A stretch of 64,000 nucleotides of DNA from a virus, in the IMG/VR virus record IMGVR_UViG_3300047170_000049, positions 95,289 through 159,288 of that record; one strand, given 5' to 3'. The position numbers and the translations under genes were made by a program. The notes below the pieces were generated by a model. That model saw only the letters and a list, made by a program, of their open reading frames with translations, ran no database searches and was not told where the DNA came from. Below are positions 33,525-62,387 of this stretch, one piece after another (positions within the stretch are counted from its first letter, which is position 1; each line of letters begins with the position of its first letter).

Positions 33525-33551
33525 TAAAGTTTTTAACGGTTATGCCGAAGA
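33525..33551 (+). promoter_or_regulatory. Sigma-28 (FliA)-type promoter of the MoxR-like gene
   Basis: TAAAGTTT (33525-33532), 11 nt, then GCCGAAGA (33544-33551). The enterobacterial FliA consensus is TAAAGTTT-N11-GCCGATAA, so the -35 is perfect and the -10 matches at six of eight positions. TTATTTCC precedes it, as at 62361. The start codon follows about 40 nt later. Confidence 0.7.
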
Positions 33552-33591
33552 GATATTGAAAGTTGAAACTTAATCTTTAAAGGAGTAGTTA

Positions 33592-34758
33592 ATGAATATC
33601 AACACATTTAAGAAAGCCGTCCCGTTCCTGTTCAAAGCGGAAGTGGTGCCCTTTGTTTGGGGTCCTGCAGGCGTAGGTAAAACCACTGCGATGAGACAAG
33701 TGGCCGAGGAACTTGGCTACGGTCTTATTGTGTTCCATTTGGGTCAAATGGGCGACGTAGGTGATTTGATTGGTTTGCCTGACATTGTGTACGAAACTGA
33801 CCCAGAAAAGATTAAAGCTGGTAATGGCAAACGTAAGGGTTACACTACGTTCATGCCTCCAGAATGGGTGCCCACTGAAGGTAAGTGGATTATCTTCTTT
33901 GACGAATTGAACCGCGCACGCCGTGACTTGCTCCAAGCCGTGTTCCAACTTATCCTTGAGCGCCGCACACACTCCATTGAGTTACCTCCTGAAACACGCT
34001 TAGTGGCCGCTGGTAACCCTAACACGGATGAATTCACCGTCACGGACATTACCGACGGAGCTTTCATGGACCGTTTTTGCCACATTAAATTGACATCAGA
34101 AACTGGCGAATGGTTAGAGTTTGCTAAGAAGAGCGCATACGCTCCTGAAGTTATTGGGTTCATTCAACAGAACTATAATAGCCTTGGTAACGATATGCCA
34201 GCTTTTGACCTGGAACGTAAGCCTTCACCCCGCTCATGGGATGCAGTCTCACGCTTGGTCAAGACTGAAATTGACACTGACCTTCTCCTAGACCTTGCCA
34301 CTGGACTATTAGGCGTTGCCCCTGCCACCGCGTTCATTGAACACATTAAGAACGCTGAGAAGCCAGTTAAGGCCGAAGAAGTGCTAAACAATTTTAGCGT
34401 TGTTAAAGCCACCATAACCCGCTTTAGCGACCCTTTGAACCCAAGACAGGACTTGCTCAAGGTTACGATTGATGACCTCTTAAAGCTCCTTGAGACGCAA
34501 AAGAGCGTTAGTTCTGCCCAGGTCCATAACGTTGTTGACTTCTTCATGACCATTCCCCTTGAAATGGCCTTCTTTGCCTCCAAAACCTTGTTCACAATCC
34601 AGGATTGGATGAAGCACATGGTAGCCCGTAAAGACTTTATTGCTCACCTTGATGGAGTTAAACCCATGAAGGATAAGCTCAAAAAGCTTGAAGCAGAAAG
34701 AATTGCGCAAGAGGCTGAAAAGAATAAGCTTTCTGGTGGCACCGATTCTGGTATTTAA
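33592..34758 (+). CDS. MoxR-family AAA+ ATPase
   Basis: 388 aa. Walker A GPAGVGKTTA is at 24-33, Walker B IIFFDELNRARRD near 101-110, a sensor-like LVAAGNPNTDEFT and a GAFMDRFCH segment. This is the MoxR/CbbQ pattern. Such ATPases act with VWA-domain partners to remodel or activate client proteins, and a VWA protein is the very next gene. The pair has its own sigma-28-type promoters. A KNKLSGGTDSG tail ends the protein. Clients are unknown. Confidence 0.85.
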   Translation: MNINTFKKAVPFLFKAEVVPFVWGPAGVGKTTAMRQVAEELGYGLIVFHLGQMGDVGDLIGLPDIVYETDPEKIKAGNGKRKGYTTFMPPEWVPTEGKWIIFFDELNRARRDLLQAVFQLILERRTHSIELPPETRLVAAGNPNTDEFTVTDITDGAFMDRFCHIKLTSETGEWLEFAKKSAYAPEVIGFIQQNYNSLGNDMPAFDLERKPSPRSWDAVSRLVKTEIDTDLLLDLATGLLGVAPATAFIEHIKNAEKPVKAEEVLNNFSVVKATITRFSDPLNPRQDLLKVTIDDLLKLLETQKSVSSAQVHNVVDFFMTIPLEMAFFASKTLFTIQDWMKHMVARKDFIAHLDGVKPMKDKLKKLEAERIAQEAEKNKLSGGTDSGI

Positions 34759-34761
34759 TCC

Positions 34762-34788
34762 TAAAGTTTTATAGGGAAATACCGAATA
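34762..34788 (+). promoter_or_regulatory. Sigma-28-type promoter of the VWA gene
   Basis: TAAAGTTT (34762-34769), 11 nt, ACCGAATA (34781-34788). The spacing is identical to the other five sites. It starts 4 nt after the MoxR-like stop codon and gives a leader of about 80 nt that holds two hairpins. Confidence 0.65.
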
Positions 34789-34808
34789 TTAGAATGCAAC
34801 TGACACTA

Positions 34809-34843
34809 GCTCTATGGATGGAGCGTACCCCAAGGATGGGGTA
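34809..34843 (+). promoter_or_regulatory. Twin hairpin in mRNA leader, CsrA/RsmA-type binding site candidate
   Basis: Two adjacent hairpins each expose a six-base ANGGAU loop: GCTCT-ATGGAT-GGAGC (34809-34824) and TACCCC-AAGGAT-GGGGTA (34826-34843). The two GGA triplets are 18 nt apart. CsrA/RsmA dimers bind ANGGA in hairpin loops, with pairs of sites at about this spacing. The ribosome site (GAGGGG) is some 20 nt downstream. This suggests post-transcriptional control of the VWA gene, or a decoy, and is inferred from sequence alone. Confidence 0.5.
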
Positions 34844-34875
34844 AATCGAGACCGCCAAAACAATGAGGGGTTAAA

Positions 34876-36054
34876 ATGATAGACGAAGCAATCATGTACC
34901 TAATCCAAAACAAGCCGTTCTACGCTCACTTGGTTATGGGGATGCGCAAAGAGTTTACTGACCGCGTTCCTACCGCTGGCGTGAACATCACGGACAAGGT
35001 TAATTTGTTGATTAACCCTAACTTCTGGAAGTCAATGAATGCCATAGAGCAAGCTGCCATTCTTGAGCACGAATGCTTGCATGTGGTCATGAATCACTTC
35101 AAACGCCGTGAGCACCGCAAACCCCGTCTTTACAACATTGCAGCGGACATGGCCATTAACGAATATATTAAAGGTCTTCCCAAAGAAATTAAAATCTTGG
35201 ATAAAAAAGGCAATCCAGTTATTAACTCTAAGACTGGTGAACAGGTTACAGGCAAAACTGTATTCCCTGCCGACTACCAACTGCCTTCACGACAAACTTC
35301 TGAGTTTTACTATGAAGAGCTTCAAAAACAACAAAATGATAAACAAAAGAGCGAAGGTGAGCCAGAATATCAACCTGGCGGTGACACCATTGATGACCAT
35401 GATTGCTGGGATGAAAGCATTGATAATGACGAGGTTATTGAAGAGAAAATCAAGAACCTAGTTAAGCCTGCAATGGAAGAAGCGCGTAAAGCTGGTAATA
35501 TGCCTTCAGAAATTTCTAAGCTGATTGACCGCTTATTCCACAAACCTAAAGACTGGCGTAAAGACCTCCAGAAGTTTGCAGCTAAGACCACTGAAGTTAT
35601 TGGCGATACATCACGCAAAGTGCGTAACCGCCGATATGGAATCATCTTCCCTGGTTATGTTAAGAAAGAAAAACTCCGCTTGGTTGTGGCCGTAGACACT
35701 TCAGGTTCAGTGAGCCAAGAAGAGCAAACCCAGTTCATGGCCGAGATTCACAAAATTCACCAACAAGGCGCTACCGTGTTTATCATGGAAGCCGATGCAG
35801 CGGTTCACGCCGTATATGAATACGACCCTAAGAAGCCCATTAAGTTTAAGGGTGGTGGTGGAACTGCATTTGGTCCAGTATTTGAAAAAGCTACCGAGCT
35901 TAACCCAGATGGTCTTATTTACATGACCGACGGTGATGACTGGGGTCCAGAAGCCAAGAAGCCAGCTTATCCGGTTATGTGGGCTCTTCTCCGTGGACGC
36001 GATGTGCGCTACAAATGGGGTTCAAAAACTTTCATTGATGTGAAGAAAAAATGA
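34876..36054 (+). CDS. VWA-domain protein with N-terminal metallopeptidase-like domain
   Basis: 392 aa. The N-terminal domain has HECLH at 65-69 (HExxH zinc motif) in the context ILEHECLHVVMNHF, followed by NIAADMAINEYI, as in DUF2201-type putative metallopeptidases. An acidic linker follows. The C-terminal VWA domain has the MIDAS motif VAVDTSGSVS (near 274) with later GGGGTAF and YMTDGDD elements. It forms a natural pair with the MoxR-like ATPase upstream. It could be a chaperone-like complex or a regulated protease; the role in phage growth is not known. Confidence 0.82.
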   Translation: MIDEAIMYLIQNKPFYAHLVMGMRKEFTDRVPTAGVNITDKVNLLINPNFWKSMNAIEQAAILEHECLHVVMNHFKRREHRKPRLYNIAADMAINEYIKGLPKEIKILDKKGNPVINSKTGEQVTGKTVFPADYQLPSRQTSEFYYEELQKQQNDKQKSEGEPEYQPGGDTIDDHDCWDESIDNDEVIEEKIKNLVKPAMEEARKAGNMPSEISKLIDRLFHKPKDWRKDLQKFAAKTTEVIGDTSRKVRNRRYGIIFPGYVKKEKLRLVVAVDTSGSVSQEEQTQFMAEIHKIHQQGATVFIMEADAAVHAVYEYDPKKPIKFKGGGGTAFGPVFEKATELNPDGLIYMTDGDDWGPEAKKPAYPVMWALLRGRDVRYKWGSKTFIDVKKK

Positions 36055-36389
36055 GCTACCGTACCTTCACTTTAGAAGATGTTATAGAGCAAAAAATTTT
36101 CATGAAAGACGGGGTGGCTTACAAAGCCATTGCGTTTTGCGAACACCCTACAATTATTCTTGAAAATATCAAGACGGGTGAGCAGGAGCATCATGTGGTT
36201 CATTGCTTGAATATTCAGGCTTTCAAGCCACTAGGCCCATGTAGAGATTGTGGCGGCACCGGCAAGACCCATTATTGGGGCAGACCTGATGATGAAATGC
36301 AATGCCAATTTTGTAAAGGCGTTGGTGAGATTTTAAATTCAGAAGATTTGCGAGATTACTTTAAACTTAGGAAGCTTCTCCGTGGATAA
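36051..36389 (+). CDS. Mini-protein: SH3-like part, DnaJ-type zinc finger and shared tail, 112 aa
   Basis: About 60 N-terminal residues look beta-rich (MKDGVAYKAIAFCEHPTII). CRDCGGTG and CQFCKGVG form a DnaJ-type CxxCxGxG pair. The end, LNSEDLRDYFKLRKLLRG, is the shared C-terminal helix. It combines all three module types and so links the zinc and KxGD subfamilies. It overlaps the VWA gene by 4 nt. Confidence 0.65.
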   Translation: MSYRTFTLEDVIEQKIFMKDGVAYKAIAFCEHPTIILENIKTGEQEHHVVHCLNIQAFKPLGPCRDCGGTGKTHYWGRPDDEMQCQFCKGVGEILNSEDLRDYFKLRKLLRG

Positions 36390-36552
36390 ATGTGGCGATT
36401 GTGGTGGGCAAGGCTGGTATGCAGTTCATCAAGGTTTTGACCCACCAGAGCAAGTACAATGTGAATTATGTGAAGGGTTTGGTGAAATCCTAACCCCCGA
36501 GGAAATGGGTCGTTACCTGCAACTGTGTGACATACTATATGGAAGTGTGTAA
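36382..36552 (+). CDS. DnaJ-type zinc mini-protein with shared tail, 56 aa
   Basis: It starts with GTG inside the end of the previous gene. CGDCGGQG and CELCEGFG form the zinc pair, and LTPEEMGRYLQLCDILYG is the tail. It closely resembles its neighbours at 36051, 36539 and 37256, so the cluster arose by tandem duplication. Confidence 0.6.
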   Translation: MDKCGDCGGQGWYAVHQGFDPPEQVQCELCEGFGEILTPEEMGRYLQLCDILYGSV

Positions 36553-36715
36553 AGCCTGTGATGGTCGTGGCATTATACAACGGGAAGTGTTTACTTATCA
36601 CCCACCCGCATGGGAAGAAGAACAGTGCGAACCTTGTTACGGCACCGGAATGGCCTTCTTAACTGAAGAAGAGTATGAGAATTACATCACACTTTGGAGA
36701 ATTTTGAATGAATAA
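36539..36715 (+). CDS. DnaJ-type zinc mini-protein with shared tail, 58 aa
   Basis: The ATG at 36539 is chosen; a GTG four codons earlier is possible. CKACDGRG and CEPCYGTG form the zinc pair, and LTEEEYENYITLWRILNE is the tail, nearly the same as the ISNEEYALWKILNE end of the gene at 63404. It overlaps both neighbours. Confidence 0.6.
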   Translation: MEVCKACDGRGIIQREVFTYHPPAWEEEQCEPCYGTGMAFLTEEEYENYITLWRILNE

Positions 36716-37259
36716 TTTAAAAGGCCAAAGATTTGGTCGATTAAAGGTCATTTCCAGGTCCACGAACGCATCTAGACGCGTCACCTGGTTATGTCAATGT
36801 GATTGCGGTAAGAACAAAATAATTAATGCGTCTAATTTAACTACAGGACGGTCCGCATCTTGTGGGTGCTTAAGAGTAGAAATATCGAAAAAGAAATTAA
36901 AAGCTGTTAAAAGAACCAAATTTGATAAAGGCGAATCTTCATTAAACGTGGTATTTTACAGATATAAGTACCAAGCGAAACGAAGAGGTATTGAGTTTAA
37001 TCTGACTAGAGACCAGTTTAAGGTTTTAACTAAAGAAGTGTGTCATTATTGTGGAGTATTGCCTGAAAAATCATTTAAAGGCCATCGTTCTAACGGCGAA
37101 TATGTATATAATGGAATTGACCGTATCAATTCTGATAAAGATTATACCCTGGATAATGTAGTCCCGTGCTGCGAAACATGCAATAAAGCTAAACTGCATC
37201 TATCCTATGATATTTTCTTAAATTGGGTGCGACGCATTGCACGGTATCAAGCGATATGA
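36708..37259 (+). CDS. HNH homing-type endonuclease
   Basis: 183 aa. The N-terminal domain has GQRFGRLKVISRS and WLCQCDCGKNK with SCGC, the AP2-associated zinc fold of phage HNH enzymes. The nuclease core is CHYCG, then NGIDRINSDKDYTLDNVVP with CCETCNKAK (ββα-metal). It probably cuts DNA at a specific site to spread its own gene. It sits inside the tandem array of DnaJ-type mini-genes, overlapping one at its start and another at its end, so it looks like a free-standing homing insertion. Confidence 0.85.
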   Translation: MNNLKGQRFGRLKVISRSTNASRRVTWLCQCDCGKNKIINASNLTTGRSASCGCLRVEISKKKLKAVKRTKFDKGESSLNVVFYRYKYQAKRRGIEFNLTRDQFKVLTKEVCHYCGVLPEKSFKGHRSNGEYVYNGIDRINSDKDYTLDNVVPCCETCNKAKLHLSYDIFLNWVRRIARYQAI

Positions 37260-37417
37260 GTAGTCCCTGCGATACTTGCGGTGGTTACGGCGAACACTAT
37301 GCCCCTGATGTATCAAAACCAGTATTGATAACCTGCTATGATTGCGACGGGACTGGATATGAGTTTACCCAGCAAGAAATGGAAGACTACTTAAAGCTGA
37401 AAAAAATCTTAGAATAA
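37256..37417 (+). CDS. DnaJ-type zinc mini-protein with shared tail, 53 aa
   Basis: The ATG at 37256 overlaps the stop of the HNH gene. CDTCGGYG and CYDCDGTG form the zinc pair, and FTQQEMEDYLKLKKILE is the tail. Fourth member of the array, separated from the other three by the HNH gene. Confidence 0.6.
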   Translation: MSSPCDTCGGYGEHYAPDVSKPVLITCYDCDGTGYEFTQQEMEDYLKLKKILE

Positions 37418-37428
37418 CTTTAAAACTT

Positions 37429-37438
37429 ATGATATATT
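37429..37438 (+). promoter_or_regulatory. Putative promoter, GATATA class
   Basis: ATGATATATT with an AT-rich upstream tract, about 20 nt before the lipoprotein ATG; CTTAAGGAG follows at 37443-37451 as ribosome site. It is like the GTGATATA sites with A in place of the first G. Confidence 0.4.
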
Positions 37439-37458
37439 AAAACTTAAGGAGCATAACG

Positions 37459-37686
37459 ATGAAATTTTTAACTTTGTTCATTTTGCTAGCCGCATTAATT
37501 TCCACTGCCTGTACCGAGCGCACACCATATGGCCCTTGCATTGGTGCTTTTGATGATAAAGACGCTAAGGTGATTTACAAGCCAAGTGTTAAGAATATTG
37601 TAATAGGAATTATCTTCTCAGAAACCATTGTGGTCCCTGCCGTAGTGCTTTTATCCGAGACCGTTTGTCCCATTGGAAACAAATAA
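37459..37686 (+). CDS. Small lipoprotein, 75 aa
   Basis: The signal FLTLFILLAALISTAC ends in a lipobox (ISTAC; Cys18). A second hydrophobic stretch (IVIGIIFSETIVVPAVVLL) near 47-65 may span or pack in a membrane. The function is unknown. It has its own putative promoter. Confidence 0.6.
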   Translation: MKFLTLFILLAALISTACTERTPYGPCIGAFDDKDAKVIYKPSVKNIVIGIIFSETIVVPAVVLLSETVCPIGNK

Positions 37687-37696
37687 GGAGTTACTC

Positions 37697-38017
37697 ATGA
37701 CACGACTTTTATATAAATCAAACGATACTGGCCTTTTGGCTGCAAAGCAAATCATCACCCTTAAAGATGGTCGCAAAACCACCGTCTTGATTGACTCCAA
37801 TGCCCTTGAATTTAATGTGGTTGATATTGCTGATGCTACCATTTTAGCAGGTGGAACGGCCAAGAGTCTCCGCGAAGTTAAGTATGCGGCGCGAAAGACC
37901 TTACTGGAGCTTGGTGCAGATATTGGCATTGAAGTAAAGTCTGCCGTTAAGAAGTTTAATAACCTTATGAAGTCCGAGGGTTCAGGTGATACAGCTAGTA
38001 ACGAATCTTCTAATTAA
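37697..38017 (+). CDS. Hypothetical protein, 106 aa
   Basis: The ATG at 37697 is chosen because AAGGAG precedes it; the open frame continues upstream over the lipoprotein end. A small alpha/beta protein (AKQIITLKDGRKTTVLIDSN) with a polar Ser-rich end. Not recognised. Confidence 0.6.
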   Translation: MTRLLYKSNDTGLLAAKQIITLKDGRKTTVLIDSNALEFNVVDIADATILAGGTAKSLREVKYAARKTLLELGADIGIEVKSAVKKFNNLMKSEGSGDTASNESSN

Positions 38018-38483
38018 GTTCTGCGAGAAGACTGGCCGCGTGTTCAACATCACGGGCACTGGTGCAGATACGGATGTGTACTTAATACGGTATTACGTCA
38101 TTAGAAGCAAGTATTTTAACTTTTTCATTCATAAGTTCTTGCGTAGTGACCGTGATGATTTGCATGACCACCCATGGAACTTTGGAACGTATGTGGTTAA
38201 GGGTGGTTACACTGAACAAAACCTTAACCCTTATACGGGTAAGGTTGACTTATTCCCTAAAGAACGTAGCGTAAATAAGAACCGATGGGCCACGCGCAAG
38301 GCTGAAGCAGTTCATCGCGTTGTTGTAGATAAAGAGCTTACGGTAGACCAACAAGACCAAGCTACGATTACCCTATGCTTAACTGGCCGTACACGCCGTG
38401 AATGGGGTTTTATCAAAAATGGACAATGGATTAACTGGAAGAAATATTTAGGTCTTCCCGATGACACTGGGAGTAGAGGATAA
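37986..38483 (+). CDS. Cupin-like protein with HDHPW motif, 165 aa
   Basis: It starts with GTG inside the preceding gene. RDDLHDHPWNFGTYVVKGGY is characteristic of a small cupin-like family found in phages and bacteria; the histidines could bind metal. Mainly beta-strand and basic. The biochemical role is unknown. Confidence 0.6.
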   Translation: MIQLVTNLLIKFCEKTGRVFNITGTGADTDVYLIRYYVIRSKYFNFFIHKFLRSDRDDLHDHPWNFGTYVVKGGYTEQNLNPYTGKVDLFPKERSVNKNRWATRKAEAVHRVVVDKELTVDQQDQATITLCLTGRTRREWGFIKNGQWINWKKYLGLPDDTGSRG

Positions 38484-38484
38484 T

Positions 38485-38634
38485 ATGAAAGTTGACGACC
38501 AACATCAAAAAGTACAAATCACCCTAACATTTGCAGAAGCTGAAAAACTCTGGGTTATTCTTGTTGACTCAATGGATGATACAAGTTTTGCCAAAAAATT
38601 GACTGACAAGCTTAATGAGTATTTGAACACATGA
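38485..38634 (+). CDS. Hypothetical protein, 49 aa
   Basis: The short frame begins 1 nt after the cupin-like stop and overlaps the UDG-like start (ATGA). Its product contains FAEAEKLWVILVDSMDDTSF, a helical sequence that looks coding. Not recognised. Confidence 0.5.
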   Translation: MKVDDQHQKVQITLTFAEAEKLWVILVDSMDDTSFAKKLTDKLNEYLNT

Positions 38635-39026
38635 AAACCGTATTAGTTGTAGGGCGAAACCCTTCACAATTAAATACCGACCCAAGGATTCCCTTCATTG
38701 GTGCAAAGTGCCGCAAGACCCTTGCCCTATGGATTGGCGAGTTGCATGTTCCCTACCAGTTCCTGTTCGTAAATGCGATTGACGAAGTGGATGCGGTTTT
38801 CAATAGCGATACGATTCACGATGCCGCTTGCAAGCTTATTTGTGAGAAGTACGACGCTCAAGCCGATAAGGTTATTGTTTTAGGTAATGATGCTGAGAAG
38901 GCGGCTAAGGCTGCCAAGACGGATTACTTTAAGCTTCCACACCCAAGCGGTCGTAACCGCAAGCTGAACGATAAAAGATTCATCTCACGCGAACTTAAAA
39001 AGTGCAGGGAGTATTTAGTAAAATAA
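38631..39026 (+). CDS. Uracil-DNA glycosylase-superfamily protein, 131 aa
   Basis: Motif A-like VVGRNPSQLN at about 6-15 and motif B-like LPHPSGRNRKL near 102-112 are the two active-site loops of the UDG fold. It is shorter than typical Ung (about 220 aa), closer to the compact SMUG/MUG-like branch. It might excise uracil or another altered base from host or phage DNA, or act as a thymine/uracil sensor; note the dUTPase at 11356. The activity is inferred from motifs only. Confidence 0.6.
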   Translation: MKTVLVVGRNPSQLNTDPRIPFIGAKCRKTLALWIGELHVPYQFLFVNAIDEVDAVFNSDTIHDAACKLICEKYDAQADKVIVLGNDAEKAAKAAKTDYFKLPHPSGRNRKLNDKRFISRELKKCREYLVK

Positions 39027-39505
39027 TGGAATTAGTTCTTTATCCAAACCCGATTTTGAGCACCCCAACAGAACCTGTCACGGAGTTCAATGAAGAGCTT
39101 CATAAGGCTTTGGATGAGATGGTGCCCATAATGGACAAGCACGATGGTATTGGACTAAGCGCAAACCAAGTGGGCATCAGCAAAAGTTTTTTCATCATGC
39201 GCGACCTTAAAGGCAAGCTTTGGGAAATTATTAACCCCAAGATTGTCCGTGTAGATGGGGTCCAGTGCTCACTTAAGGAAGGATGCTTAAGCCTCCCTGG
39301 TGTTAAAGCTGAAATTCCTAGACCCGAACAGCTTACAATAGAGTTTCAAGACCGTAATGGATACGAGATGAAGATTGGTGCATGGGGCATTGAAGCCGTG
39401 TGCATCTCCCACGAGATAGACCATCTTTTAGGTATCTTCTTTATGGAAAAATTAAGCCGCCAAGCTAGAAGAGCGGCGTTAAGAGAGGCAGGAAAGAATG
39501 AGTAA
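39026..39505 (+). CDS. def: Peptide deformylase
   Basis: 159 aa, with the ATG overlapping the previous stop. All three PDF motifs are intact: GIGLSANQ (41-48), EGCLS (85-89, Cys87 a metal ligand) and HEIDH (129-133). It removes the formyl group from new proteins. Phage deformylases are known from marine cyanophages, where they are thought to favour turnover of particular host proteins. No other translation factor is close by. Confidence 0.93.
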   Translation: MELVLYPNPILSTPTEPVTEFNEELHKALDEMVPIMDKHDGIGLSANQVGISKSFFIMRDLKGKLWEIINPKIVRVDGVQCSLKEGCLSLPGVKAEIPRPEQLTIEFQDRNGYEMKIGAWGIEAVCISHEIDHLLGIFFMEKLSRQARRAALREAGKNE

Positions 39506-39824
39506 AGACGCACATTATCACCCACACATTATTGGTGCTTTCAAGTCCACTGGTATGGAATACAACCAATGGGCCAAAGACTTCCACGCTTGGTTCATCA
39601 AAGACTTCATTCAAACTCACCCAAATATTGCCTTGGACTTTGATATGCAAGCTCACATGGCCGACATTGATGGAACGCAGCTTGAAGTGCTGGACGTGGT
39701 TGAGTTTAGCGAAGTTTTCACTTTGCACGTTTTAATTGAGCTTTACTACTCCACCAAGGGCTTAAGCACGGACACACCTCCAGATGAACCTAAAACCAAA
39801 AAGAACTTGAGGTTAATGCAATGA
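39498..39824 (+). CDS. Hypothetical protein, 108 aa
   Basis: Not recognised. A His-rich start (DAHYHPHIIGAF) is followed by an aromatic-rich helical part (NQWAKDFHAWFIKDFIQTH) and an acidic middle. It overlaps the deformylase gene by 8 nt and the next small gene by 4 nt. Confidence 0.6.
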   Translation: MSKDAHYHPHIIGAFKSTGMEYNQWAKDFHAWFIKDFIQTHPNIALDFDMQAHMADIDGTQLEVLDVVEFSEVFTLHVLIELYYSTKGLSTDTPPDEPKTKKNLRLMQ

Positions 39825-39949
39825 CAAAACCTAGCACTCCTACAAAAATATTGGTATTTAGCTACTTAGCCATTTTAATTGGGTTTGCGTTTTATCTTTC
39901 ACATACGCAGCCTACCCAAGCAGAGGTTACAAGTGAGCATACTAAGTAA
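39821..39949 (+). CDS. Small membrane protein, 42 aa
   Basis: The ATG overlaps the previous stop. One hydrophobic helix (ILVFSYLAILIGFAFYL) is followed by a polar tail (SHTQPTQAEVTSEH). The function is unknown. Its end overlaps the start of the next gene by 17 nt. Confidence 0.5.
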   Translation: MTKPSTPTKILVFSYLAILIGFAFYLSHTQPTQAEVTSEHTK

Positions 39950-40205
39950 AACCGTAGTTGAAGCCATGAAAGCTGGCACGGACCTGGGCCTTATTCGCTC
40001 ACACGAGACCTTGCGTGCTGAAGTTGAGCGACTTACGGAGCTTAATGAGAAATTAGTGGCAGCGGCTAAATTGGGTTATGATGCGGCAGAAGGTCATATC
40101 CATGCGTTTGTTGAGACCCCAGAAGATAAGGCTGACTGCTTAGAAGAGATTGAGCCCATTAAACAAGTATTAAATGAGGTAAAACCAGATGGCGAAGAAT
40201 TATAA
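39933..40205 (+). CDS. Hypothetical helical protein, 90 aa
   Basis: A GTG at 39933 with AGAGG 6 nt upstream is the likely start; the frame is open earlier but without a ribosome site, and an ATG eleven codons later is the alternative. Charged and helical (HETLRAEVERLTELNEKLVA) with an acidic end. Not recognised. Confidence 0.5.
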   Translation: MSILSKTVVEAMKAGTDLGLIRSHETLRAEVERLTELNEKLVAAAKLGYDAAEGHIHAFVETPEDKADCLEEIEPIKQVLNEVKPDGEEL

Positions 40206-40512
40206 GCTTTACAACTTCTTAGTAAACACCTACGGCCTTTCCAAAGAGAAGGTCATGGAACACTTTGAAGCCCGTATTGAAGCTATCATTGAGAAATCTA
40301 TCCGTTCTAAAATTGATTCAGGCTATGTGCAAGATGCCATTCTCAATAAGATTGCTGCCATTTTTAAAGAAGGTGGGGATTCTAACCGCTCACCTTGGTA
40401 TCACAAGAAGACGTTTGATGACTTCCTTAAGCACACCGTGGAAGACGTAATTAAGAAGCACATTGAAGAAAAATATGAGTTTGCGGTTAAAACCAAGAAG
40501 GATAATGTATGA
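40189..40512 (+). CDS. Hypothetical protein, 107 aa
   Basis: Not recognised. The product is helical and basic (EKVMEHFEARIEAIIEKSIR; FDDFLKHTVEDVIKKHIEEK). It overlaps the genes on both sides by 17 and 4 nt. Confidence 0.55.
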   Translation: MAKNYKLYNFLVNTYGLSKEKVMEHFEARIEAIIEKSIRSKIDSGYVQDAILNKIAAIFKEGGDSNRSPWYHKKTFDDFLKHTVEDVIKKHIEEKYEFAVKTKKDNV

Positions 40513-55175: not shown

Positions 55176-55259
55176 TTTTAATACCTATCCTTAAAGTTGC
55201 AATGATACTTAAATCATTAAGATTATTGCCTAAGTTGTTCATTTCACTGATAAAAAATC

Positions 55260-58136
55260 TTATAACTGACCCACAAAATGAGGTTGGAAATAAAGGTTGT
55301 TGCCATCGACCACACCGACAATAACCACATTAAATCCAGTAGGATAGGTGGGTGTTGAGGGTGGAGTAGAGGTCATAACGCCTGGGGTTTGACTCAAATA
55401 GAGGTATGCTCCGTGCGTAAATCCACTAAGGATTGCAGGGATATAGCCGCTATAGGCCACTAAGCCTGATGCGCTGTTAGCGATTGAGTTAACGGTTACT
55501 CCAATGACTCGACTTTGGTTGGCCACTGAGCCCGTAGCGGGTGCAATGTTACCAGGTGAAGGCGAGTAGACTGGAGTGCCTGCAGGGATAGTTGAGCCTG
55601 AAGTATTAACACAAGTCTTGCTGAGGTAGTTTTGGCCTGAACCTGCCACCAAAGCGTTAAGCGTTGCGGTAATGTCCGTATCAATGCTATTTCCTACAAA
55701 GTGTAAGTCATGGCTGTTATCGACATAGAGACCGTCTTGGCCAGAAGCTAATGGGGAAGAGCTTACTGGAGTGAGTTGAAGTCCAGTGGGGTCGATTACG
55801 CCTGTTACTTCAATGTCACCATTGAATATTGCGGCCTTCTCTGAGCCTGAAGCTGTGATGGTTACTGGTTGTCCAGGTACGTTCGCGATGGTATTTCCAC
55901 CGTTGTAGGCATTTTGGAGTGAACCGCCACCTGCCGTAGAGTTAATCGTAACTCCGTTAGCACCAGGGGTTAGAGTAATGTTCGAGCCTGCTACTAAAGA
56001 TTTGAACTGAGCATCGGTGCCAGACACGCCTGCAGCAATTCCAACACCCGTACCAAGGTTAGAGATGGTAGCAATGCCACCGCCTCCACCACCACCGCTT
56101 GAATTATTGCCGCCGATGGTAGCAATACGGAAGTGAACGCGTGAATCATTAGGTAATGCGTAGTTAAATGAGATGTGCTGGTTATCAATTGCAATCCAGT
56201 CGGCACTTCCACCTTGGGTCTTATAAAGTTGGTTGAGGTAAACTTGTAAGAAACCCGCTGAAGGCGAGAAGAACTGAGGATTATTACTGTCACGCGTATT
56301 ATTTGGAAGCGTGATGCTGGTATTAGCTGCTAATCCAGTGGGGTAATAAATCTCTTCGTCATAAACTGGAGTTGAAATCGTCTGGTCAATCTTACCTATG
56401 GCTTGTGTGAGGTTTTGACCATCGGTAACGACTGTTAATGGACGAGTGGAGTATTGAGAATAAATAGGAGTTGAGTCAGTTTCACTCGTCGAACCAATGT
56501 ATTGTAGGGTTTGACTTGAAACGTGGTCATCAATGTTGATGCTTTCGCCTTGGTTTAGAGCGCCAAAGTTACGGATATAGATTTTAGCTGTATCGGCAAC
56601 TGTACCACCTGAGCTTGAACCATCTGCATCACCAGTTTGAATGTAAGTGAATGATGTGGTTGTGGGCACGGTAGCAACGTTGAATTGACCGTCGTATGTG
56701 GTATCGGCCACACCAGCAATCTCTACGGTTTGTCCCACGGGAATGTTATGTGGGGCAGCGGTGACAACGGTGGTAATACCGCTTGCACGACTAATACTGG
56801 AAATCGTCGCCGTATTAAATGCGAAGTCATCACGTTTGAAGAACCAATAAGTATTAGCTGATGCAGGAACATTAACTGGGTCTGCAACGGCCATGGTGTA
56901 ATTCTGGATTGACTTTGTAGCTTGGTCGAATGTGGTTACGCCTGTGTAACCCTTATCGAGAGTAATCACTGCACCAGTAATGTCAGTGATTTTACGCCAT
57001 ACTGAGATGTCGCCACCCTTTGGTTTAATCCAATCGCCTACGGAAATATTCAATACGGTTCCTAAACCTTGTACGGTCACTGAACCATTGGTGAATGTGA
57101 ATTCATTGGAGGGTTGGAAGTCAATATCACGTTGGAGTGAGATGTAACCGACTTGTTGGTCTAAGAGGTTAAGTGAACCTGGAGCGATTTGATAAATCAA
57201 ATCACCCGTAATGGACTTAACGAATAAGTCTGAAGTCCATGAGATTTGCCCTGGAGTAACGTTTGAGTGGACAAATACGCCTGCACCGTCGATTAACGAG
57301 TCATTGGAGTCTTGCCAGTCAGTGAATACGCTGATGCCTGTAGCTTGCGTAGAACCGTTTGTGTACCAGTAAGCGCCGCCGTTCAATTGCTTGAGCACGG
57401 TCATTACTGCGTCCATCCATTGCTTGAAATTGGTCAAGTCCCAATCACCGCCTACGAATGGGTCAGCGGCTGAACTACCAGAAATGGTCAATGGATTTTC
57501 TAATGCAGGATTGAATACGAAGGTGTTGTTTGGATTAGGTGTAGCGCCACCAGTTCCAAGACGAAATAAGCTTTGTTTACAATTAGTGATTTCTAAGATT
57601 TGGTTTGACGCATTAGTTTGTACGATAGCGATAGGCGCATTAGTTCCAAAGCCAGTCGTATTAATAACGAATTGGTAGTTTAATACGATACCAGTTGGAA
57701 CGGTACGAGTGAATTCGACTTTAGCGTCAACGTCCCAAAATGAAAGCAAGTCATCTGTGCTCGAATCAGTTGCTTTAGAGAACTGAACGGCAATGTAGTT
57801 AGTGGAGTTAGCAGTGAAAGAGCCTGTTACTTTCGTATTAGCTGAGTTGAGTTGTTCAGGATTAGTTCCAGGTGCGACGCGAAGAAATGAACCATTGGGG
57901 TCGGTGGGTATCGTTACGATTGCACCGTCAACACTGACCTGTAGGGAAGCTGCAGGAGCATTGATTGCCGTGGGTGTGTTGATTAAGGTGAAGCCCGACA
58001 AGATGTAAGGCGTGTCATTCTGGAAGATTTCCCAAAGGGTTTTAAAGTCATAGATGACGCCATCTTCGATTTCTCGAATCATGGGCACATCGACTCTAAG
58101 CTGTGATAACCAATTGATAGACTGTTTGACTGCCAT
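55260..58136 (-). CDS. Large tail or baseplate-associated protein, 958 aa
   Basis: The start IREIEDGVIYDFKTLWEIFQ followed by PYILSGFTL is typical of N-terminal virion-attachment parts of fibres. The middle is beta-rich with repeated shaft-like strands. The end, CVNTSGSTIPAGTPVYSPSP followed by IGVTVNSIANSASG, is a decoration-protein-like domain found at fibre ends. Likely the proximal member of the fibre set. Confidence 0.72.
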   Translation of the reverse strand: MAVKQSINWLSQLRVDVPMIREIEDGVIYDFKTLWEIFQNDTPYILSGFTLINTPTAINAPAASLQVSVDGAIVTIPTDPNGSFLRVAPGTNPEQLNSANTKVTGSFTANSTNYIAVQFSKATDSSTDDLLSFWDVDAKVEFTRTVPTGIVLNYQFVINTTGFGTNAPIAIVQTNASNQILEITNCKQSLFRLGTGGATPNPNNTFVFNPALENPLTISGSSAADPFVGGDWDLTNFKQWMDAVMTVLKQLNGGAYWYTNGSTQATGISVFTDWQDSNDSLIDGAGVFVHSNVTPGQISWTSDLFVKSITGDLIYQIAPGSLNLLDQQVGYISLQRDIDFQPSNEFTFTNGSVTVQGLGTVLNISVGDWIKPKGGDISVWRKITDITGAVITLDKGYTGVTTFDQATKSIQNYTMAVADPVNVPASANTYWFFKRDDFAFNTATISSISRASGITTVVTAAPHNIPVGQTVEIAGVADTTYDGQFNVATVPTTTSFTYIQTGDADGSSSGGTVADTAKIYIRNFGALNQGESINIDDHVSSQTLQYIGSTSETDSTPIYSQYSTRPLTVVTDGQNLTQAIGKIDQTISTPVYDEEIYYPTGLAANTSITLPNNTRDSNNPQFFSPSAGFLQVYLNQLYKTQGGSADWIAIDNQHISFNYALPNDSRVHFRIATIGGNNSSGGGGGGGIATISNLGTGVGIAAGVSGTDAQFKSLVAGSNITLTPGANGVTINSTAGGGSLQNAYNGGNTIANVPGQPVTITASGSEKAAIFNGDIEVTGVIDPTGLQLTPVSSSPLASGQDGLYVDNSHDLHFVGNSIDTDITATLNALVAGSGQNYLSKTCVNTSGSTIPAGTPVYSPSPGNIAPATGSVANQSRVIGVTVNSIANSASGLVAYSGYIPAILSGFTHGAYLYLSQTPGVMTSTPPSTPTYPTGFNVVIVGVVDGNNLYFQPHFVGQL

Positions 58137-58146
58137 AATTAAATCC

Positions 58147-58425
58147 TTAAACCGTTAAATCGCAAGTAATGACAAGTGGGTTGTAAGCGGGTTGGCCGCA
58201 TTTCATGCAAGAAGGTGGGACGGTCCCACCCCACATGCCTGGTGGGTATTGATGCTGACACGGGCCATAAATAGGCTGAAGCTGCACTGGGTGAATATGA
58301 TTATGAAAAGGCTGCGCTTGTCTAAGTACCTGAATTAATTGGTCTTTTGCTTCAATGACTTGCTGCAGAGTCTTGATTTGTTCTTGCAATAGCGCAACGG
58401 TGTCTAGATTTTCTTTAGAGTCCAT
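58147..58425 (-). CDS. Small coiled-coil protein with Cys/His motif, 92 aa
   Basis: Residues 8-36 are a coiled coil (VALLQEQIKTLQQVIEAKDQ). The second half is His/Pro/Gln-rich (FHNHIHPVQLQPIYGPCQHQ) and holds CMKC, a possible zinc site. It is the first gene of the minus-strand tail operon and might be a fibre-assembly or attachment factor. Not recognised. Confidence 0.55.
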   Translation of the reverse strand: MDSKENLDTVALLQEQIKTLQQVIEAKDQLIQVLRQAQPFHNHIHPVQLQPIYGPCQHQYPPGMWGGTVPPSCMKCGQPAYNPLVITCDLTV

Positions 58426-58521
58426 AATTTACCTTAAATATAGAGAAGCAGAGATGGTGGGAAATAACTACATTAAGATTTTAAGCTAACTACTTAATAT
58501 CATTATGTTTTAATTTTCTTC

Positions 58522-58548
58522 TAAAGTTTCTTTTGAACTTACCGATAG
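58522..58548 (+). promoter_or_regulatory. Sigma-28 (FliA)-type promoter
   Basis: TAAAGTTT (58522-58529), 11 nt, ACCGATAG (58541-58548). The -35 is perfect and six of eight -10 bases match the FliA consensus GCCGATAA. It lies about 42 nt before the 155-aa gene and is divergent from the tail operon. Confidence 0.75.
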
Positions 58549-58589
58549 GATATATGTAGGGCATAACAACAAACATTAAAAGGTGGGAT

Positions 58590-59057
58590 ATGAAGACCGA
58601 AGTTAATAAGAACGTAAGGCGAGTAAGAGAGTCGATAGTAGCCAAGCGGGAGTATCAAGTAATCGAGCGCAATCTTCAACGTAATACAATAAAAGTAATC
58701 GACGTTGAAACGGGCGACTCGTTCCACACCCATGTTCCAATACTTGGGGCAGCATCATACTTCAGCATTGGCACCATTATTGTGATTCCCCAGCTTTATA
58801 AGAAAAGTGCCGCATCAAACCTTGGCAATCGACGTGATGCCAAGCCTGTAGCTGAACCTGCACAACTCGTGACCAATTATTCGATGGAACGTAGTCGCGC
58901 ATTAACTGCAATATACAAGCAAATGGCTCGCCTCAGTAAGCAATGGAATGAAGAGTTCAGGGCTAATGGCTCAGAGAATAAAGATATATTAGAGAAATTG
59001 AAGTATGAAATCAATAAGTTAAAGGCTTCATACGAAACCTTGAAACATTCCCCATAA
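58590..59057 (+). CDS. Hypothetical protein, 155 aa
   Basis: Not recognised. The N-terminal 70 residues are a basic, beta-rich part (RNTIKVIDVETGDSFHTHVP). The C-terminal half is a charged coiled coil (SRALTAIYKQMARLSKQWNE; LEKLKYEINKLKASYETLK). The AAGGTGG before the ATG is the ribosome site. Transcribed from a sigma-28-type promoter and followed by another, which overlaps its last codon. Confidence 0.6.
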   Translation: MKTEVNKNVRRVRESIVAKREYQVIERNLQRNTIKVIDVETGDSFHTHVPILGAASYFSIGTIIVIPQLYKKSAASNLGNRRDAKPVAEPAQLVTNYSMERSRALTAIYKQMARLSKQWNEEFRANGSENKDILEKLKYEINKLKASYETLKHSP

Positions 59058-59080
59058 GTTTTATGGAAATAGGCCGATTA
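59054..59080 (+). promoter_or_regulatory. Sigma-28 (FliA)-type promoter of the CheY-like gene
   Basis: ATAAGTTT (59054-59061), 11 nt, GCCGATTA (59073-59080). Seven of eight -10 bases match the FliA consensus; the -35 has one A shifted. It begins on the stop codon of the upstream gene, and GTAAGGAG follows before the ATG at 59104. Confidence 0.7.
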
Positions 59081-59103
59081 ATAATTGTAAGGAGATAAAA
59101 GTT

Positions 59104-59466
59104 ATGAAAAAAGTATTAGTAATCGACGATGACTCAATGTTGCTCCAGTGCATGAAGCTGGTGCTAGAAAGCGAGCACTACGAGGTAGTGACGGCTAGCA
59201 ACGGACTGGAAGGCTTAGAAGCTCTGTCGGATGATATTGACCTTATCGTGCTGGACTTGTCAATGCCTGTAATGTCTGGGTCAGAATTTCATGACAAGCT
59301 GCGCGAGCAAGCCGACCTGGACCACATTCCAGTTGTCATCTTAAGCGGTCTTGAACGCCCTGACCCAATTGAATGCGTGGAGATTGTTAAAAAACCCATT
59401 AACGTTATGGATTTACTAGGGATTATTGGCATCTACACTTCAGATGAAAAAGGAGCGGCGGCTTAA
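59104..59466 (+). CDS. CheY-like response-regulator receiver protein
   Basis: 120 aa, a single receiver domain with nothing else, the size of CheY. The acidic pocket is VIDDDS (Asp8-10), the phospho-acceptor is Asp51 in IVLDLSMP, Ser81 sits in VVILSG and Lys97-Pro98 in VKKPI, so phosphorylation should be possible. CheY-P binds the flagellar switch; a phage copy could change swimming, soak up phosphate from CheA or other kinases, or act elsewhere. The sigma-28-type promoter, used for flagellar and chemotaxis genes in bacteria, fits such a link. Confidence 0.9.
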   Translation: MKKVLVIDDDSMLLQCMKLVLESEHYEVVTASNGLEGLEALSDDIDLIVLDLSMPVMSGSEFHDKLREQADLDHIPVVILSGLERPDPIECVEIVKKPINVMDLLGIIGIYTSDEKGAAA

Positions 59467-59490
59467 CTTCACTATTTTTTAATAATGTGC

Positions 59491-59517
59491 TAAAGTTCTT
59501 TATGGTCTAGCCGATAG
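59491..59517 (+). promoter_or_regulatory. Sigma-28 (FliA)-type promoter
   Basis: TAAAGTTC (59491-59498), 11 nt, GCCGATAG (59510-59517). It differs from the consensus at one base in each box and is the best match of the six. It lies about 25 nt before the next gene's AAGGAG. Confidence 0.78.
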
Positions 59518-59541
59518 GATAGATGTAACAAGGAGATGGAT

Positions 59542-60243
59542 ATGTTAATCAAATTAACAGAGCAAGACCCTAAGTACATCGTAGACCTCACGGAGCATTT
59601 AATCAATCTTGGCGCTAAGTCCACTAACCAGCCTAACGTGTTAGAAGTGGAAGAGGCTTTCGACGTAGACCAATTCCATGGTGTTGAGAAACTTAGCAAT
59701 CTCCCTATTACTGATTACAAGGAAGAAATCAAATGGCTTCATGCTTACCATGGCAACTTTGAATTCTACCTCAGCTTGAAAACTCAATACGCCACCAAAG
59801 GCCGATTGAGCGATAAACAATGGGCTTCAGTAACCAAAGCAATTCAACGTGACCAGGCTCAAGCCGCACAAAAGGTTAACCAAAAGTTCTCAATAGAAGG
59901 TGGCACCGTAATTGTTCTCAAGAAATACTTCGCCCATGAGCTTGCTCAACAAGCTGGATGCGTAAGACCTCATTATGCGTTTGAAGTGGTCAAGGTTCAA
60001 GCTGAAACTGAGAAGGCGTATAGACTGACCTTGAAACTCACCGCACAGCGCACGACGCATTGCTCCGTATGTGGAATCAAATTGACGAACAAATCATCAG
60101 TCTCAACGGGCATTGGACCAATTTGCGCAGAAAAGTGGGGAATTCCTCAAACTTTAAAAGATTTGGCCGATAAGTTACAGACAACGGTGGAGGTCACTAG
60201 TTGGTTACCTAAAACTGCAATAAAGGAGCGATTTGGAAAATAA
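59542..60243 (+). CDS. Hypothetical protein with C-terminal zinc motif, 233 aa
   Basis: The ATG at 59542 is chosen because AAGGAG is 6 nt upstream; an ATG two codons earlier abuts it. The N-terminal and middle parts are mixed alpha/beta (KEEIKWLHAYHGNFEFYLSL). The C-terminal CSVCGIKLTNKSSVSTGIGP with a following Cys is the DUF6011-like zinc motif frequent in phage proteins. It is transcribed from the sigma-28-type promoter at 59491 and followed by a structured RNA. Confidence 0.62.
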   Translation: MLIKLTEQDPKYIVDLTEHLINLGAKSTNQPNVLEVEEAFDVDQFHGVEKLSNLPITDYKEEIKWLHAYHGNFEFYLSLKTQYATKGRLSDKQWASVTKAIQRDQAQAAQKVNQKFSIEGGTVIVLKKYFAHELAQQAGCVRPHYAFEVVKVQAETEKAYRLTLKLTAQRTTHCSVCGIKLTNKSSVSTGIGPICAEKWGIPQTLKDLADKLQTTVEVTSWLPKTAIKERFGK

Positions 60244-60264
60244 CATTCGATGATTTGGACCTGC

Positions 60265-60392
60265 CATCTACCTCTTCATAAGGTGAAGTCTTCGTGCCTG
60301 GGTACTAGGGTAGATGTGATTTGACCAATTTTTATTGTACCCAACCTGCGTGTGTCGGACCCGTGCATTCGTACTGTAACGAAGATAACGGG
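60265..60392 (+). ncRNA. Structured intergenic RNA with pseudoknot and double-stem hairpin
   Basis: CATCTACCT (60265-60273) pairs with GGGTAGATG (60308-60316) and encloses the hairpin CTTCA-TAAGG-TGAAG (60274-60288). TGGGTAC (60299-60305), inside that loop, pairs with GTACCCA (60337-60343) outside it, an interleaved pseudoknot of 7 perfect pairs. Then CCCGT/ACGGG (60360-60364, 60388-60392) closes an inner TTCGT/ACGAA hairpin. No gene fits in 60244-60423. It lies just before a gene whose ribosome site is AAAAGGAG, so it may be a leader element or a separate small RNA. Confidence 0.65.
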
Positions 60393-60423
60393 CATCGAGA
60401 AAATTTAACAAAAGGAGTATTGT

Positions 60424-60723
60424 ATGCAAGGTACAGAAGGATTTATGGACAATCAGTGTGAACACTGTAAAAAACAATTTAGTGATTTAGAGCCTTATGG
60501 GATGGCTGGGAATATACCAGGCGATAGGAATGAAATTTACAGATTTCACATACTTAATGGCGGCATAGCAAATTCATGTTTTGTTAAAGCTTTTGCAAAA
60601 TTTAAAGTACCAAAAGGTTTTGGCCTTGCACTTCCTTTGGACGAAAGTACCATTTCTAAAAAAGCGAAAGAAGAGGCAATATCAAAACTAAAGCGTTTTA
60701 TTGATAAAGTTTACAAGGAATAG
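60424..60723 (+). CDS. Hypothetical zinc-finger-like protein, 99 aa
   Basis: AAGGAG stands 5 nt before the ATG. CEHCKKQF near 13-20 is half of a possible zinc site, with His/Cys later (FHILNGGIANSCFVKAF). The end is basic and helical (KAKEEAISKLKRFIDKVYK). Not recognised. Confidence 0.55.
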   Translation: MQGTEGFMDNQCEHCKKQFSDLEPYGMAGNIPGDRNEIYRFHILNGGIANSCFVKAFAKFKVPKGFGLALPLDESTISKKAKEEAISKLKRFIDKVYKE

Positions 60724-60765
60724 AAAGCACATAAAGTTTGAAGTGGAACGAGTTGGAGATATTCA

Positions 60766-61131
60766 ATGAAAATTGCGATTGATGTTAAAGGCACACTAGA
60801 AGGTCCCAAGGGCGAAATCATTGCTGAAGCCGCTGCCGTATTAAAAGAACGCGGCCATGAGATTACGGTCTGGTCTAGCCTTCTCTCTTATGCCTACGAA
60901 TGGGTCAAGGGTGCAGGTGAATTCTACGAAATCAGTGGCAAGAAATGGCGACGTGACGTTGAGCCTGAAGAGTTCTATGATGTGGCCATTGAAGACGATG
61001 AGAACCTGGGTGAGATTTTGGCCGCCAACAAAGTCATATATGTTCACGAGTTCAACAGTGTCAATGAATTACTGGGCTTAATTACTGGGGAGAACAATGA
61101 AAACAATATTGACGTTAAGTCTGCTATTTAA
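60766..61131 (+). CDS. HAD-like protein with altered motif I, 121 aa
   Basis: The N-terminus IAIDVKGTLEGPKGEI resembles the HAD superfamily motif I (DxDGT), but the second Asp is Lys, so a normal phosphatase mechanism is unlikely. HEITVWSSLLSYAY fits motif II (hydrophobic strand ending in S/T). VAIEDDENLGEIL fits the acidic motif IV. It is short and without a cap domain. It may be a binding or regulatory relative. The end overlaps the next gene by 35 nt. Confidence 0.45.
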   Translation: MKIAIDVKGTLEGPKGEIIAEAAAVLKERGHEITVWSSLLSYAYEWVKGAGEFYEISGKKWRRDVEPEEFYDVAIEDDENLGEILAANKVIYVHEFNSVNELLGLITGENNENNIDVKSAI

Positions 61132-61270
61132 TGTGGTTGGGTACATCTACATAACGGCCTACAAGAAAGATGTGGCTTTTGAGCGAAGCATGGCCAACGC
61201 GCACATTGATATGCTTCACCACGCTTTGAATAGTGACGTTGCCTTTAAAAGGAGCTTGGCTAGTAAATGA
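61097..61270 (+). CDS. Small membrane protein, 57 aa
   Basis: An N-terminal hydrophobic helix (ILTLSLLFNVVGYIYITAY) is followed by a charged helical tail (HIDMLHHALNSDVAFKRSLA). The ATG lies within the HAD-like gene, and the stop overlaps the next ATG (ATGA). The function is unknown. Confidence 0.5.
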   Translation: MKTILTLSLLFNVVGYIYITAYKKDVAFERSMANAHIDMLHHALNSDVAFKRSLASK

Positions 61271-61596
61271 AAACGTTCCAACGCGGTGATTGGGTAACTC
61301 TTGTTCCATTTGAAGAATGGATTGGGTACTTGAGAGGCACTAGCGCCGACGGCAATCTTATTGGTGGTCTAGGGCCTGAATCCTTCCGTGAAGATTACAA
61401 CACAATCTTGAGTCGTAGGTCTGCCGTACAAATACTAAACACGCAAATGCACAACATCAAAGGCGTGGAATCTCAAACGGTGGCTATTGACCCGTTTAGG
61501 CCATTCCCTGAATACAGTGCAGAGATATTCCGTTTGCTTACACCAGAAGAGTTGGCCTTGGCAAAGCTTTTGTTTGATGACAAAAGGATAGCTTAA
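61267..61596 (+). CDS. Mini-protein family member: RGDWV module with shared tail, 109 aa
   Basis: FQRGDWVTLVPFEEWIGYLR is the SH3-like module. RLLTPEELALAKLLFDD is a model copy of the shared C-terminal helix. First of a tandem run of eight such genes to the right edge, most linked by 1 to 29-nt overlaps. Confidence 0.62.
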   Translation: MKTFQRGDWVTLVPFEEWIGYLRGTSADGNLIGGLGPESFREDYNTILSRRSAVQILNTQMHNIKGVESQTVAIDPFRPFPEYSAEIFRLLTPEELALAKLLFDDKRIA

Positions 61597-61874
61597 TGAC
61601 TTTAAAACGTAAATGGCAATTAGGGGACATCGTTAAAGCGAAGCACGATATGTTTTTGCACCCAGAATACACAACTGACATAACCAAAGCCATTATTATC
61701 CCTGCAGGTACCTTCCTTGAAATCCTAGAACGCTTTTCATTCCTAGGCAACGTTAGCAATATTTTGGTTGGTAAGACCATCCACGGTGCAATGTACGCAT
61801 ACATGGTTAGTCCCAGTGCCGTTGTGCCATTGACTCGTAAGGAGAATGAGATTGCAAGACTCTTATACTCTTAA
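61596..61874 (+). CDS. Mini-protein family member: QLGDIV module with shared tail, 92 aa
   Basis: KWQLGDIVKAKHDMFLHPEY opens the protein and VPLTRKENEIARLLYS ends it. A central PAGTFLEILERFSFLGN strand pair is like the L(K/E)xG-x-YQV element of the related genes at 32268 and 63862. It shares one base with the previous gene. Confidence 0.6.
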   Translation: MTLKRKWQLGDIVKAKHDMFLHPEYTTDITKAIIIPAGTFLEILERFSFLGNVSNILVGKTIHGAMYAYMVSPSAVVPLTRKENEIARLLYS

Positions 61875-62100
61875 GTTCAAGCAAGGCGATTGGGTGATGT
61901 TTCGTGAAGGCGACGCATGGTGTGTGTGCAGGATAAAGCGTGCTGAAAAGATGCGTGGTGATTATAAGGTGCAATGGCTCTATGATAGCATCAACGCTAT
62001 CAGACAGCGTTATACGCTTATGAGCATTGACGAGACCGATGAAATGGGTCACAAGATGACCGACATGGAAATTAAACTCTTTAAGGTGTTATATGCCTAA
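61846..62100 (+). CDS. Mini-protein family member: KQGDWV module with shared tail, 84 aa
   Basis: The ATG at 61846 is used, though AAGGAG is close to it and a TTG two codons on has better spacing. LKFKQGDWVMFREGDAW is the SH3-like module and MTDMEIKLFKVLYA the tail. It overlaps both neighbours. Confidence 0.6.
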   Translation: MRLQDSYTLKFKQGDWVMFREGDAWCVCRIKRAEKMRGDYKVQWLYDSINAIRQRYTLMSIDETDEMGHKMTDMEIKLFKVLYA

Positions 62101-62347
62101 GTTTAAGAAGGGTGACATCCTTTATATGGAAGAAGAATATTACGGTGCTATGAGTCGCCAACTGATTCAGGTTCTAGGCGTCGAGCCTTACCGTGATGGT
62201 TGGTACGATTATAAAGTGCAAATGATTGTAGACACTTCAGGCCAATACACTGGTAACCCAGATTATTTGCTGCAGGAGATTGTAGACCGTGATGCCATCA
62301 AACTCAATAGAACGCAGGTAAAACTGTTTAAATTGCTCTATACTTAA
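62093..62347 (+). CDS. Mini-protein family member: KKGDIL module with shared tail, 84 aa
   Basis: PKFKKGDILYMEEEYYGAM opens the protein and LNRTQVKLFKLLYT ends it. The middle (LIQVLGVEPYRDGWYDYKVQ) aligns with DYKVQWLYDSI of the previous gene, evidence of duplication. It ends 13 nt before the sigma-28-type promoter at 62361. Confidence 0.6.
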   Translation: MPKFKKGDILYMEEEYYGAMSRQLIQVLGVEPYRDGWYDYKVQMIVDTSGQYTGNPDYLLQEIVDRDAIKLNRTQVKLFKLLYT

Positions 62348-62360
62348 TTGCATTATTTCC

Positions 62361-62387
62361 TAAAGTTCTCCGTATTACTTCCGATAG
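62361..62387 (+). promoter_or_regulatory. Sigma-28 (FliA)-type promoter of the SGNH lipoprotein gene
   Basis: TAAAGTTC (62361-62368), 11 nt, TCCGATAG (62380-62387), preceded by TTATTTCC as at 33525. A strong AGGAGG (62395-62400) and the ATG at 62405 follow at once. Confidence 0.72.

Follow-up and report, generated by a model that had tools for sequence, protein, structure and literature searches.

Can a phage place a subset of its genes under the flagellar sigma factor (FliA, sigma-28) of its host? Phages are generally thought to start transcription on the housekeeping sigma factor or to bring their own, and no report of phage use of FliA promoters was found in the open-access literature searched, most subscription journals being outside the scope of that search. 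The question is raised by a window of 64,000 nt (the whole stretch of DNA analysed, bases 95289-159288 of the 159,288-base virus record IMGVR_UViG_3300047170_000049, hereafter G000), which our best explanation assigns to a large, uncultured, contractile-tailed phage related to Myxococcus phage Mx1. An initial annotation made from sequence alone had described six FliA-type promoters with identical 11-nt spacing, each shortly before an AUG, and had proposed that they are read either by the flagellar sigma factor of the host or by a phage-encoded sigma that recognises the same sequences. If host FliA does read them, the outcome of infection would be linked to whether the host cell is swimming or sessile, with a bearing on phage behaviour in biofilms and on predatory bacteria whose attack phase is driven by FliA, and FliA arrays would predict flagellated hosts straight from sequence. 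Gene calls throughout are simple ORF calls, and virus records may be fragments.

Six FliA-type sites in the window and the genes that follow them

All six sites are present on the plus strand of the window, each made of 8 nt, a spacer of exactly 11 nt and another 8 nt, and every coordinate and spacer of the initial annotation was confirmed. The first putative promoter (33525..33551, TAAAGTTT-N11-GCCGAAGA) is noncoding, scores 17.3 bits with a matrix of E. coli FliA promoters (described below), and lies about 41 nt upstream of the ATG of a MoxR-like AAA ATPase (33592..34758, 388 aa; PF07728, 5.6e-8; phrog_1297). The second (34762..34788, TAAAGTTT-N11-ACCGAATA, 14.4 bits) stands about 88 nt before the ATG of a protein combining a DUF2201 putative metallopeptidase with a VWA-like part (34876..36054, 392 aa; PF13203 and PF09967). 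The third (58522..58548, TAAAGTTT-N11-ACCGATAG, 17.9 bits, ATG about 42 nt downstream) precedes a protein of 155 aa (58590..59057) for which Pfam and PHROG searches returned no match. The putative promoter at 59054..59080 (ATAAGTTT-N11-GCCGATTA, ATG about 24 nt downstream) deviates in its first two bases and is the weakest of the six (12.0 bits); it is followed by a CheY-like stand-alone receiver domain (59104..59466, 120 aa; PF00072, 7.4e-18), in which the DD pair, the phospho-acceptor D and the KP motif can be recognised by eye. The strongest match of the genome (19.7 bits) is the candidate at 59491..59517 (TAAAGTTC-N11-GCCGATAG), about 19 nt before the ATG of a DUF6011 protein (59536..60243, 235 aa; PF19474). 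The last putative promoter (62361..62387, TAAAGTTC-N11-TCCGATAG, 15.6 bits) is followed by AGGAGG and an ATG, and precedes an SGNH/GDSL hydrolase with a lipoprotein-like signal MNVLITIVLTSSLWLIGC (62405..63121, 238 aa; PF13472, 1.9e-9 on the longer ORF). All six genes are on the plus strand. The proposed placement shortly before an AUG also held, at distances of about 17 to 88 nt, with one qualification: the value of about 17 nt at 62361 applies only to the internal ATG at 62405, which was picked from the promoter and the Shine-Dalgarno sequence, and not to the longer ORF starting with TTG.

A record-wide set with a fixed spacer

The initial count was real but too low, as the whole 159-kb record carries 11-12 FliA-type sites, nearly all just upstream of a gene start on the same strand and mostly inside noncoding DNA, which makes up 5.2% of the record. 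Further clear sites outside the window lie at genome positions 13068, 47707, 48528, 64863 and 71828 on the plus strand and 71805 on the minus strand. The genes that follow the sites across the genome are small or accessory, and scattered. An additional candidate at 28724 has a spacer of 12 nt.

The sites, their spacing, their placement and their enrichment are direct observations. Individual sites match 12-14 of the 16 letters of the consensus (TAAAGTTT-N11-GCCGATAA, scored over the entire record) and 12-20 bits of the E. coli matrix. At 14 or more letters there are 5 matches against 0.15 expected per genome, and at 13 letters 10 against 2.5 expected in the whole record. Within gaps, a threshold of at least 13 letters yields nine matches with a spacer of 11 nt and 0-2 with each of nine other spacers (range 7-16), while a threshold of at least 12 letters yields 15 matches, where 100 dinucleotide shuffles averaged 2.0 and never exceeded 6. 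An unbiased word-pair search of all gene-upstream regions of the record returned AAGTT-N13-CCGA as its top dyad. In the aligned set, a C directly precedes TAAAG in all 12 sites, an ATAT-like stretch occurs about 10-13 nt past CCGA, where a start site would be expected, and the usual -10 box is CCGATAG or CCGAATA, not CCGATAA.

An independent E. coli FliA matrix recovers the sites

Because a self-trained matrix took in noise and drifted, the record was scored with an independent one derived from 15 FliA-bound promoters of E. coli (PMC4183435). The initial annotation had proposed a FliA matrix scan of gaps and coding DNA as a check, and held that equally strong matches scattered through coding sequence would refute its reading. 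Eight of the ten best matches in G000 are FliA-type sites, and nine of the 22 matches at 12 bits or more are noncoding, despite the small noncoding share of the record. Matches also occur in coding DNA, but they are weaker (12-15 bits); at 12 bits and above they are about twice as numerous as expected under a Markov model. The sites are therefore convincing as a group and not individually, and single sites also score lower than most E. coli promoters (14-26 bits), a point that, like the usual -10 box, counts against a reading by host FliA. Variants TTAAG, CCGAA, CCGATAG and ACCGAT are found in the E. coli promoters of tsr (GCCGAAAA), ycgR (TTAAGTTT..ACCGATAA) and flxA (GCCGATAG), whose expression collapses without fliA (PMC4183435), and each main deviation in the G000 sites has a precedent in one of these three.

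The array is rare among relatives

The nearest cultured relative is Myxococcus phage Mx1 (OR576727.2; capsid 55% and sigma 31% identical). It resembles G000 in its similar gene order, an orthologous sigma without region 4, and GroEL, and differs in its 55% G+C and 22 tRNA genes (PMC10720576), none having been found in the G000 window. A scan of the Mx1 genome found no FliA-type sites; its host Myxococcus has no flagella, and we count this in favour of a reading by host FliA. A capsid search yielded 80 relatives in IMG/VR (no matches were obtained with the sigma or the terminase as bait), and 50 records were scanned. One, G042 (IMGVR_UViG_3300031952_000002, 136,843 bases), carries nine sites of 15-16 out of 16 letters, several of which precede, by 24-31 nt, an AUG with its own Shine-Dalgarno sequence; the nine are the nine best matches of the E. 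coli matrix in that genome, with a clear gap beneath. Another, G025, carries two FliA-type sites. In the capsid tree G000, G042 and G025 fall on separate branches, which implies repeated gain or loss of the trait. The rarity of the array among relatives and its presence in these two records are established by the scans. The motif was absent from the closest relatives scanned, G001-G006, though similar hosts might be expected, and we count this absence against a reading by host FliA. The DUF2201 gene allows a direct comparison: in G002, its ortholog has an upstream GTGATATAG element and no FliA site.

Attempts to identify the host gave no usable answer. A first scan of bacterial genomes for capsid relatives was empty, and a second returned only five scattered metagenome bins (Planctomycetaceae, Saccharibacteria, Deltaproteobacteria, Elusimicrobia and Chthonomonas), too weak a signal to use. 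A Bdellovibrio host had been considered on the strength of its FliA-driven attack phase, but two cultured Bdellovibrio phages have no match to the looser pattern TTAAG-N14-17-CCGAT, and the guess is therefore without support.

The phage sigma-like protein lacks region 4.2

The sole recognisable sigma-like protein of G000 (329 aa, genome positions 94783-95772, minus strand) is encoded mostly outside the window, which holds only the N-terminal part of the gene (1..484, minus strand; PF04539; phrog_351; PDB profile match to RpoD 327-530 of 577). It comprises regions 2-3, lies close to an SbcD-like gene, and stops inside region 4.1, the -35-reading region 4.2 being absent. Ten orthologous ORFs in genomes of the family all end within region 4.1 too. 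A profile built from 8 sequences aligns with RpoD residues 327-530 of 577 and ends before region 4.2, which is missing in 8/8; FliA structures score below RpoD against it. The absence of region 4.2, in the G000 protein and in its orthologs from seven related phages, is a direct observation. The protein also gives a weak match to the FliA_WhiG model (positions 2-186 of 224). Orthologs occur in Mx1, G001, G003, G004 and G018, all without a FliA-type array. A search for a Sigma70_r4 or other region-4 domain elsewhere in G000 found none, and a search for further phage sigma-4, FliA-like or FlgM-like proteins gave nothing above the cut-off.

Two other motif classes accompany different genes. A late-type motif, AATCTTAAT, precedes minus-strand structural operons; of its 21 copies, 15 lie in noncoding DNA ahead of gene starts. 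The copy at 58472..58480 (minus strand) faces away from the FliA-type site at 58522 and is, on sequence evidence alone, a candidate element of the phage sigma, which as a gp55-type late sigma would read a -10-only late promoter. A middle-type motif, GTGATATA, precedes several replication-side genes, such as that for DNA polymerase III alpha (15540..15547, plus strand). Phage factors, the region-4-less sigma among them, probably serve the replication and structural genes.

FliA-type arrays in other virus contigs

The exact consensus occurs in at least 120 stretches of IMG/VR, against 31 for a reversed-pattern control, none of which has more than one site. Some of the contigs may be prophages that include host genes. 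About a dozen further contigs have 2-10 sites each; one (L181) has ten sites inside 5 kb, each preceding a small ORF. A Shine-Dalgarno sequence and an ORF lie within 150 nt of 90/137 sites, against 4/31 for the reversed control, and 13 of the contigs, searched whole, gave 2-9 sites each and zero control matches. In L186, L196 and L222 a TTGACA box is superimposed on the FliA site. Searches for isolates close to these other array contigs gave distant protein matches only, and eight such isolate genomes were without sites.

Which factor reads the sites?

The two-way proposal of the initial annotation is supported, and its host branch is favoured, since the phage sigma has no region 4.2, is nearer to RpoD, and also occurs in relatives without the motif. 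Recognising a FliA-type -35 box calls for a region-4 reader; the phage sigma offers none, and a host sigma is therefore most likely required, by inference. We consider a host sigma of the FliA/WhiG family the likely reader of the G000 sites, again an inference, there being no transcription data and no known host. In this scheme, phage DNA would enter a cell with free FliA, in a motile or attack-type state. The host FliA holoenzyme would then bind, with sigma region 4 on the -35 element TAAAGTTT and regions 2-3 on the -10 element [G/A/T]CCGA[T/A]A, and would transcribe the scattered small or accessory genes (the MoxR/DUF2201 pair, the CheY-like receiver, the SGNH lipoprotein and the unknowns) without requiring any phage factor. 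Binding by host FliA, the time of firing and dependence on motility are all inferred; the initial suggestion that expression is tied to the motility state of the host remains an inference only, with no host identified and no transcript measured.

An alternative, which we regard as unlikely, is that the phage sigma-like protein has come to recognise FliA-type promoters, perhaps helped at the -35 box by a second phage protein. It is a genuine sigma relative and matches the FliA_WhiG model, if weakly. Against this reading stand the lack of region 4.2 in all eight orthologs of the profile, its closer relation to RpoD, the need of a FliA-type -35 box for a region-4 reader, and the occurrence of orthologs in phages without the motif; the element before structural genes (AATCTTAAT) is also a better fit for a sigma without region 4.

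It is also improbable that a phage or host activator or repressor binds the sites while sigma-70 transcribes, the likeness to FliA being coincidental. In T4-type middle promoters an activator box does accompany a sigma-70 -10 element, and the ATAT-like bases at a fixed distance past CCGA in G000, as well as the TTGACA boxes overlaid on FliA sites in some unrelated phages, would suit such an arrangement. However, both half-sites and the spacer fit the FliA consensus, and do so in more than one unrelated phage lineage, and a search of 58.4-64 kb for sigma-70 promoters (TTGACA and TATAAT, 16-18 nt apart) found no match on the four sites there and a regional total below that of shuffles.

Chance matches aided by AT-rich gaps are all but ruled out: 12-15-bit matches do occur in coding DNA too, but the shuffle excess, the spacer specificity, the unbiased discovery, the placement before starts and the recurrence in G042 speak against them.

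Returning to the host-FliA reading, we lean, by a modest margin, towards a bolder version in which placing promoters for host FliA in arrays is a recurrent strategy, acquired independently in several unrelated phage lineages in environmental data. The arrays would drive sets of small, probably early genes, at times interlaced with a sigma-70 promoter, and the motile state of the host would gate infection.

Comparison with known systems

The closest counterparts are the enterobacterial FliA promoters (tar, tsr, ycgR, flxA; PMC4183435), with the same -35 element TAAAGTTT, 11-nt spacer and -10 element GCCGATAA, and with TTAAG, CCGAA and CCGATAG as variants shared with the phage sites. G000 differs in that the sites lie in a phage genome, with phage genes downstream, and in its usual -10 box. 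The attack-phase FliA regulon of Bdellovibrio bacteriovorus (TTAAG-N16-CCGATA; PMC3627812) shows FliA serving many non-flagellar genes, and several G000 sites likewise read TTAAG; in contrast, its targets are cellular genes, and it has 16 nt between TTAAG and CCGATA where G000 has 15. Finally, the G000 sigma recalls the late sigma factor gp55 of T4 in the absence of region 4, in an SbcD-like gene beside it (gp55 lies near gp47 in T4), and in the presence of several promoter classes in one genome. Whereas T4 uses sigma-70 for its early promoters, alongside middle (MotA) and late classes, one class in G000 looks made for FliA.

Phage motifs upstream of structural and replication-side genes

Most minus-strand structural operons are preceded by a late-type motif that reads roughly TCA-N5-TTAG-N4-6-AAATCTTAAT on the genome minus strand (for example at window 58480, 55224 and 43160, all minus strand). 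This motif is a possible recognition element for the phage sigma-like protein that ends before region 4.2, a suggestion for which there are no binding data. Several replication-side genes carry upstream a second, AAATAAGTGATATATAG-like motif (window 3924 (-), 5120, 11855, 15540, 41211 and 50657 (-)), which was also found in three IMG/VR capsid relatives, G018, G025 and G002.

FliA-type sites and accessory genes

Two FliA-type (sigma-28) sites lie divergently back to back at genome 71805 (-) and 71828 (+), and the site at genome 64863 (+) has a weaker one in opposite orientation. Another precedes a stand-alone CheY-like receiver (window 59104-59466), of which host chemotaxis is a conceivable target. 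In L181, a 30-kb contig from an unrelated phage, ten FliA-type promoters lie inside 5 kb (458-5037), each with a small ORF about 29-38 nt downstream. Contigs L186, L196 and L222 have promoters with a sigma-70 -35 box (TTGACA) between the FliA -35 and -10 boxes, a placement that, from sequence alone, may suggest dual use by sigma-28 and sigma-70.

A small ORF adjoining the sigma gene (genome 94511-94792, minus strand) appears GroES-like by eye, and the phage encodes a GroEL homolog (window 5176-6990) with 42% identity to that of Myxococcus phage Mx1, its nearest cultured relative.
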